64,000 nt of DNA from Pseudoxanthomonas suwonensis (lineage in GTDB: Bacteria > Pseudomonadota > Gammaproteobacteria > Xanthomonadales > Xanthomonadaceae): contig NZ_PDWP01000020.1 in NCBI RefSeq assembly GCF_010093235.1, positions 1 through 64,000 of the forward strand. The letters are read 5' to 3'. Made by a program: the position numbers and the translations under genes. Of this stretch, positions 47,942 to 48,678 are shown piece after piece. Each line of letters opens with the position of its first letter. Position 1 is the stretch's first letter. The notes beneath the pieces were generated by a model that ran no database searches, had not been told where the DNA came from, and worked only from the letters and a program-made list of their open reading frames with translations.

Positions 47942-48077
47942 TTAAGGCGTGCACGCGGGGCGTGCCGGGCGGGGCGCCTGGCGCGTCGCCACGCGCCGTT
48001 GGTCCTGCCGCATCAGCCTGCAATGGAGTGGCGGGTTGGTCGAGGCCAGGCGGGCAGCCGGCGGGCTCCGGGGGGAG

Positions 48078-48185
48078 CCGCGGCAGTGCGGGGGCATGGG
48101 GCATCGCGCGGCTCCGCGTCCTGCTCCAACGCGCGACCGCGGCACATCCATGTGCCGCTTGCCCCATGCCCCCGCACCACCGCGG
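48078..48185 (+). repeat. Structured repeat, copy A: predicted three-way junction
   Basis: Outer CCGCGG/CCGCGG closes on an 18-bp perfect stem P1 (48086-48103 with 48160-48177; inner strand GTGCGGGGGCATGGGGCA). Inside are P2 (TCGCGCG 48104-48110 with CGCGCGA 48130-48136, 19-base loop) and P3 (CGGCACAT with ATGTGCCG, 48140-48157). The loop edge and P2 contain GCTCCAACGCGCGACC (48123-48138), which is identical in copy B. It has no coding content. Confidence 0.8.
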
Positions 48186-48357
48186 CTTCGGGAGTTTCCA
48201 GCTCGTGGCTTCGCTCCTGTTCTCCCCCTCGCCCTCCGGCAGAGGGCGGTGGGTGAGGGACGATGCCCGGCCACGGCCGGAATGCCGACCTTCCCGCCCG
48301 CCCTTCCGTGGCATCACGGGGAGAGAAACGAAGCTGTGACCGGGGCGTGCCCGAAGA

Positions 48358-48465
48358 CGCGGTGGCCAGGGGGCGCGGCGCAAGCAGGCCATGGATGGCC
48401 TGCGGTCGCGCGTTGGAGCCTGGATGGCGGAGTCGCGCGATGCGCCGCACCCCCTGAGCACCGCG
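48358..48465 (-). repeat. Structured repeat, copy B: same fold, opposite orientation
   Basis: Reverse-complement relative of copy A. Outer CGCGGTG/CACCGCG, then P1 (48367-48382 with 48441-48456, 16 pairs with one mismatch), P3 (CAGGCCAT with ATGGCCTG, 48385-48402) and P2 (TCGCGCG 48406-48412 with CGCGCGA 48434-48440). P1 and P3 sequences differ from copy A but still pair, whereas the 16-base block at 48404-48419 is the exact complement of that in A. Confidence 0.8.
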
Positions 48466-48678
48466 GCTCCGTCCGGAGCTGCCCACGCCAGGACCGCCAG
48501 AACCAAGCACACCCGATCCCGAGGCGATCGCGCCCCGCTTTGGGAGCTTCGCTTGTCAGGTCTGCGGGGAGTACGCAGCACAGTTGCATGGCCGGAACAG
48601 ACCGGGGCCGCGGAGTGGCGACAGCCATGGACACTGGCGGGGGTATGCTCGCCGCGATCCCCAACGCCGGAGACGGCC

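Follow-up and report, generated by a model that had tools for sequence, protein, structure and literature searches.

The gap between purB and fumC in the window, that is the whole 64,000-nucleotide stretch of DNA analysed here, holds two structured units that face each other. We read this pair as one full copy of a non-autonomous, REPIN-like interspersed element that is probably processed as single-stranded DNA, and we give this reading a probability of about 0.4. Processing in trans as single-stranded DNA is the best reading because the copies are mobile, one strand is under a folding constraint and the orientation of the units appears, in the one complete genome evaluated, to be linked to replication. 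The repeat itself is real, undescribed as far as the literature and Rfam searches reach, and a new variant of interspersed palindromic repeats.

Facing units in the purB-fumC gap

The divergent genes purB (minus strand) and fumC (plus strand), assigned with Pfam, enclose units A and B, which are separated by a spacer of 159 nt (Table 1). Alignment of both copies indicated homologous three-way-junction folds, in which a long stem (P1) is closed by two short arms (P2 and P3), in agreement with the first-pass annotation, which had described facing copies made of these three stems; profile matches refined the unit limits to 125-127 nt. It had also claimed that P1 and P3 change in pairs between A and B while the block GCTCCAACGCGCGACC remains identical. 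The alignment confirmed this, and the block was found exactly twice, in A (+) and in B (-), in the 64-kb window as in the whole genome. The P2 stem of unit A is near-invariant across the genus, and a further GGA lies in the loop region of the P2 arm of unit B, on the + strand. Folded as DNA, the 413-nt palindrome reached -169.5 kcal/mol, against a shuffled mean of -114.1 (z -11.4; 0 of 100 shuffles as low), and single arms folded into P1, P2 and P3 with z values of -5.0 to -8.9 (both arms, both strands).

Table 1. Features of the two facing units in the window (GGA strand, strand carrying the GGA tips).
Feature	Position	Strand	Evidence and remarks
Unit A, 125 nt	48067-48191	+	Profile match, fold, alignment; GGA strand is -
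Unit A, P1 5' arm	48076-48103	+	Inverted repeat I3, 93% complementary to 48160-48187; fold
Unit A, P2 arm	48104-48136	+	TCGCGCG 48104-48110 with CGCGCGA 48130-48136; fold, covariation helix 4
Unit A, P3 hairpin	48139-48158	+	- strand reads GCGGCACATGGATGTGCCGC (CANGGANG); sequence, fold
Unit A, P1 3' arm	48160-48187	+	Inverted repeat I3; fold
Spacer between units	48192-48350		Orientation relative to purB/fumC opposite in G006
Unit B, 127 nt, inverted	48351-48477	-	Profile match, fold, alignment; GGA strand is +
Unit B, P1 arm (3' arm in unit orientation)	48356-48382	+	Sequence, fold
Unit B, P3 hairpin	48384-48403	+	+ strand reads GCAGGCCATGGATGGCCTGC (CANGGANG); sequence, fold
Unit B, P2 arm	48406-48440	+	TCGCGCG 48406-48412 with CGCGCGA 48434-48440; sequence, fold
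Unit B, P1 arm (5' arm in unit orientation)	48441-48466	+	Sequence, fold
Block GCTCCAACGCGCGACC	48123-48138; 48404-48419	+; -	Exact string search

Two copies alone could not carry a claim of covariation, which is thus borne by 56 related units. The profile gave 92 matches in 61 fetched sequences, and 56 units were aligned (A2) for a covariance model, R1. The first-pass annotation had proposed such a test, and pairs do covary: two-sided changes were found in 17 of 39 pairs (reached by 2 of 500 shuffles), with 169 covarying cells versus 46.3 in shuffles (0 of 500) and a covariation score of 0.247 versus 0.092. These figures are counts and not probabilities, because this alignment also supplied the structure and kinship among copies can by itself lift them above shuffles. 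All these measures fell when partner columns were slid by one to three positions. Covariation concerned P1 and P3, the P2 stem being almost invariant, and divergent genera displayed other P1 letters in the same layout.

In the genome of the window (G000), two further clear BLAST relatives were found, on contigs C2 and C19, and the covariance model gave at least five matches in all (E 0.001). The copy on C19 is truncated and abuts, at the contig start (L100:1-145), sequence that we take to be like a sequencing-library adapter, so that this contig end is probably an assembly artefact. A second structured repeat (...GGGGCGCCTGGCGCGTCGCCACGCGCC) lies just upstream of unit A (47960-48000 of the window); by eye it recurs as GCCGGGAATGA...GGCGCTGGCGACGTCTGGCGCGTCGCCACGCGCCAGC in L060, L069, L089, L091, L102 and L107, beside or within the P1 stem of units.

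Dispersal and movement of the repeat

The search for other copies proposed in the first-pass annotation revealed a family. BLAST with the palindrome found matches in 15 of 17 Pseudoxanthomonas genomes, 2 to 112 in each, and none in two; such counts include the palindrome read in either orientation and perhaps repeats of the spacer, and copy numbers are approximate. The unit profile matched the best loci of those 15 genomes. Beyond the genus, R1 matched at least 34 of 149 genomes and at least 15 of 54 genera of the family Lysobacteraceae, 23 candidates being scored per genome, so that copy numbers are again approximate. In the complete genome G014 the model matched 131 times, and in G013 19 times. 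The exact P3 hairpin was also present, among the matches listed, in Lysobacter, Luteimonas and Thermomonas, and seven such loci of the family, once folded, displayed the three-way layout by eye. A Bradyrhizobium match (L299) was set aside as chance, its surroundings being devoid by eye of this architecture.

The unit is therefore a high-copy extragenic palindrome, occurring singly or in inverted pairs. According to open-frame heuristics for gene calling, 43 of 119 units lie between convergent genes, 48 between tandem genes (29 sense, 19 antisense), 4 between divergent genes and 24 at locus edges; three of the four divergent cases are purB-fumC, where the pair is present in G000, G006, G013 and G007. 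Draft copy numbers are probably underestimates, because draft contigs end at or near units (L054, L057, L061, L066, L071, L102 and L104, in G015). Carriage by phages or plasmids was considered and rejected, one G014 element having no match in phages and one unit none in plasmids, and the exact P3 hairpin was found in no viral contig. Rfam gave nothing at gathering score for the window and 20 loci, only sub-threshold matches, mostly to microRNA families. A search of open-licence PMC literature, which does not prove absence, yielded no description that we recognised of this repeat or of CsrA-binding repeats, in line with the earlier remark that no described family has this design.

Mobility of the copies was shown in G014, where the two-ended element measures about 500 bp, with a left end of 127 nt and a right end of 124 nt, and where 86 places comprise 44 inverted pairs and 42 singles. 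At six G014 sites, the unit was carried by 20 of 20 G014 loci and by 0 of 20 orthologous stretches from G000, G004, G005, G006, G007 and G013; eight sites had been queried and six fetched, short gaps being chosen, and a further site among those queried, L377, has a unit in its G013 orthologue. Random 5' truncation as the origin of single right ends was rejected, since the start of 13 of 14 falls within core positions 243-261, close to a GTAG repeat, and that of the remaining one at 375. A GTAG-type REP pair was observed inside the G014 element (L375-L394), which thus nests two repeat systems; these GTAG repeats are sequences separate from the foot of the unit.

Copies are also often replaced or converted within genomes: of 16 orthologue comparisons (sampled copies only), 12 involve at least one copy that is closer to a paralogue from the same genome. 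The window pair, matched in inverted sense with that of G006 (Pseudoxanthomonas sp. J31) and with few paralogues sampled, had no closer paralogue in its own genome. The paired element is indeed inverted relative to purB/fumC between the window (48067-48477) and G006 (L099:1639-2012), which reflects either an inversion in place or a separate insertion.

Next to many units lie imperfect arrays of the hexanucleotide GCAANN. Among 72 units of five genomes, all the arrays seen were outer (35 versus 0). In G014 they were outer at 17 of 20 right ends, and at left ends inner in 17 of 20 and outer in 2; in other genera they were inner in 12 of 99 and outer in none. These arrays were dropped as a sign of a polar process, since their side differs in G014 and in other genera; slippage at the fold is a plausible cause. 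Within the G014 elements L375-L394, arrays lie on the right-end side of both units and so point the same way across each element. In L386, L387, L390, L391 and L392 (G014), flank and first unit bases are duplicated in tandem over about 50 nt, as if the polymerase had slipped at the base of the fold.

The constrained strand and the search for a mover

Compensatory change had been taken in the first-pass annotation as a sign of selection on structure or of spread. The copies do spread, but such change is not in itself proof of selection: in a DNA palindrome it can also come from templated repair, and mismatches were therefore tested for one-strand wobbles. P1 arms were aligned with a strand-blind score, and G-T mismatches on the strand of the quoted block were counted against those on the opposite strand. 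The ratio was 42:80 in 53 of 56 genus units and 25:116 in 100 of 109 family units (alignment A3, with five reversed self-matches kept here and in the counts over 109 units of hairpins and loops below), and became 66:185 once identical units were removed. By group (26 genomes and four loci without a mapped genome), 25 of 30 favoured the opposite strand, 2 the quoted strand and 3 were ties. The two exceptions, G000 and G006, have two units each, the window's own among them. One strand alone is thus kept foldable in Lysobacteraceae, and this wobble asymmetry designates the strand opposite to that on which the block had been quoted, a point that the first-pass annotation had missed together with the GGA tips. 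Such strand asymmetry is a better argument for selection than compensatory change.

Orientation relative to replication was evaluated in G014, with dnaA as origin, the terminus assumed opposite and score classes set afterwards. For ends of at least 90 bits the two arms gave ratios of 16:3 and 3:15 (Fisher p 5.5e-5), and ends below 74 bits showed the reverse, 6:24 and 23:11 (p 1.6e-4). Intermediate units of 74-82 bits (n=24) gave p 0.12 and those of 82-90 bits (n=5) leaned the other way, 4:1. All 130 units pooled showed no replichore bias (p 0.16), as expected if the two ends point opposite ways. The pattern was seen in convergent, tandem and divergent sites of 40 fetched loci, which were partly picked by orientation, so that this agreement is not independent of the replichore bias.

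From a mechanistic point of view, the proposed element joins two inverted structured units through a short spacer, and units are also found singly; the GGA strand of each unit folds into a long stem ending in two short arms with GGA tips. The element may spread in trans as single-stranded DNA exposed at replication forks, the GGA strand being recognised and cut by a putative nuclease, HUH-like or other, by analogy with TnpA acting on IS200/IS605 ends and RAYTs acting on REPs. A point against this is that lagging-strand exposure would favour one end only, because the GGA strands of the two ends lie on opposite DNA strands.

The transposase that the first-pass annotation proposed to look for was sought as Y1_Tnp (RAYT), and the linkage was negative: the 25 Y1_Tnp loci fetched from Pseudoxanthomonas genomes are all without a unit, and genome G001 has at least 11 unit matches in spite of being without a Y1_Tnp match. 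The comparison with REP/RAYT systems made there is apt, but these loci gave no support for a RAYT link. Reverse transcriptase was rejected as a mover, PF00078 being present in 2 of 17 genus genomes (G000 and G008) and absent from the high-copy genomes G004, G005, G007, G011, G014 and G015.

Like REP, REPIN and BIME repeats with RAYTs, the present units are extragenic, palindromic, non-autonomous and present in high copy number, singly or in inverted pairs. REP units are hairpins of 20-40 bp with GTAG or CGTC tags (PMC3733652), whereas the present unit is a three-way junction of 125-150 nt with GGA tips, no GTAG/CGTC foot in its 125-nt consensus and no RAYT beside it in the 25 loci. The inverted repeats (TIRs) of TIRYT genes resemble the units in being long, some of them self-complementary and paired; their hosts include Stenotrophomonas and they share a motif, GGGGWSAS (PMC3733652), and their likeness to our units is one of description. 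Ends of IS200/IS605 are likewise structured as single strands and linked to the lagging strand (PMC6006769), but they differ from the present element, which has two inverted units, a three-way junction and no linked HUH transposase found. Repeats of the ERIC/RU-1 type deserve mention as well. We know of no three-way junction or GGA tips in them. They are likewise of about 127 bp, intergenic and MITE-like (PMC2759123).

GGA tips in two phyla and alternative readings

Hairpins like CANGGANG correspond to the CsrA/RsmA consensus. Of the 109 family units, 101 have CANGGANG on the GGA strand and 7 on the other strand, and 7 have it when shuffled; for the 56 genus units the corresponding numbers are 52, 0 and 4. 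Without the five reversed self-matches, CANGGANG was present in 101 of 104 oriented family units versus 2 on the other strand. Exact ACAGGATGT occurred in 26 of 109 family units and 0 of 56 genus units. Among family units, 95 of 109 have GGA in two of their hairpin loops, as do 53 of 56 among genus units. Unpaired GGA amounted to 3.39 per genus unit versus 0.65 expected from unpaired composition (5.2-fold), and to 2.35 per family unit versus 0.54 (4.3-fold; 104 units, no CANGGANG filter), an enrichment that is a description and not a proof because homologous units enrich other trimers too, TCC, TTG and TGG being strongly enriched unpaired in genus units.

An element of like build was found in another phylum. 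The exact P3 hairpin was present, among the matches listed, in Thermodesulfovibrio and other Nitrospirota MAGs, in copies with the same kind of fold and A+T-rich long stems. Model R2, built from six of them, showed 29 of 49 pairs covarying (51 cells versus 19.4 in shuffles) and matched at least 42, 51, 35 and 33 times in four Nitrospirota MAGs (150 candidates). CANGGANG was present in 31 of 33 aligned units and a second GGA arm in 26 of 33; unpaired GGA reached 2.55 per unit versus 0.84 expected (3.0-fold), GAG being raised as well (45 versus 27.8). Wobbles were 58:14, or 26:14 minus one invariant G-U pair and 12:6 in P1 alone, in an alignment (A6) fitted to a structure derived on the GGA strand, which argues weakly for a one-strand constraint in Nitrospirota. 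Orientation to genes was even (10 and 12 of 30 loci in tandem settings, open-frame gene calls). The arm order differs, P3 being the second arm on the GGA strand, so that common descent is not proven; the likeness may be a convergence on the same recognition. By eye, L439, L445, L447, L456, L460 and L461 have further inverted flanks on the outside, which fall into two or more types (TGTCCGGTAAA... and CCAAATCCAGC...) and may be the true ends. In L450:1105-1294 and L462:1873-2064, again by eye, the P3 arm holds an inserted hairpin of about 40 nt and retains a GGA tip.

These tips make it possible, if rather doubtful, that the units are RNA elements: the GGA strand would be transcribed, from its own promoter or by read-through, and its loops would bind CsrA/RsmA, titrating it or marking transcripts, spread being a by-product or domesticated. 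The strand preference of CANGGANG, its frequency in Nitrospirota units, the two GGA loops and the excess of unpaired GGA are in line with this, as is the presence of a CsrA gene in 17 of 17 genus genomes and in all four Nitrospirota MAGs. CsrB, RsmY and RsmZ carry GGA motifs in loops and single-stranded patches, and the units resemble RNAs of this type in having several such motifs. So does RsmU, an RsmA-sequestering GGA RNA known in Xanthomonas and reported as limited to it (PMC7694677). These are transcribed RNAs of one or a few loci, whereas the present repeat is dispersed and known from DNA only. The absence of an Rfam match at gathering score and an orientation to genes that is fixed in neither phylum argue against the RNA reading, and the trimer control is weak, in homologous units where TCC, TTG, TGG and, in Nitrospirota, GAG are also raised. 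CsrA is not known to depend on the conserved stem letters, which also counts against this reading. Conversely, we know of no role for GGA tips in single-strand transposition: they fit RsmA binding and are without explanation in the reading as processed single-stranded DNA, and both could hold.

It is unlikely that the element moves as double-stranded DNA in the manner of a MITE, its long inverted ends serving an unlinked transposase as substrate. Inverted units at both ends of a short mobile element of about 500 bp would suit this reading, as would the outer inverted flanks seen by eye on some Nitrospirota copies, and the transposase search covered Y1_Tnp. However, single units are common (about half of the G014 places), strand asymmetry and replichore bias are unexpected, and the fetched loci showed no target duplication or autonomous copy, their junctions not being sharply placed. 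It is more improbable still that the palindromes are neutral and owe their continued pairing to templated (quasi-palindrome) repair and to gene conversion, with no selection on the fold. The frequency of closer paralogues within genomes among the sampled copies and, by eye, a double change between matching units of G000 and G006 are consistent with such a process, but it predicts neither the wobble asymmetry, overall or across groups, nor the conserved GGA hairpin, nor a like element in another phylum. An intrinsic terminator or fixed mRNA 3'-end structure is very improbable in spite of the units frequently lying between convergent genes, as divergent genes flank the window copy, units are found in either orientation and some come, by eye, after a separate terminator.

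The repeat brings to the REP/BIME world a structured class built on a three-way junction, an element of like build being present in another phylum, and the wobble asymmetry offers a way to tell the constrained strand in palindromic repeats. What could raise this repeat above a variant of such repeats is its GGA signature. We advance only tentatively, and consider somewhat improbable, that a selfish mobile repeat with candidate CsrA/RsmA-binding folds, like-built in two phyla, scatters tens to more than 100 GGA-tipped structures per genome and can so load or rewire the Csr/Rsm network of its host. If the GGA tips do not bind CsrA, they may point to a single-strand nuclease that reads GGA-tipped Y folds; if they do, this would be the first case known to us of a mobile repeat seeding sites for a global regulator.
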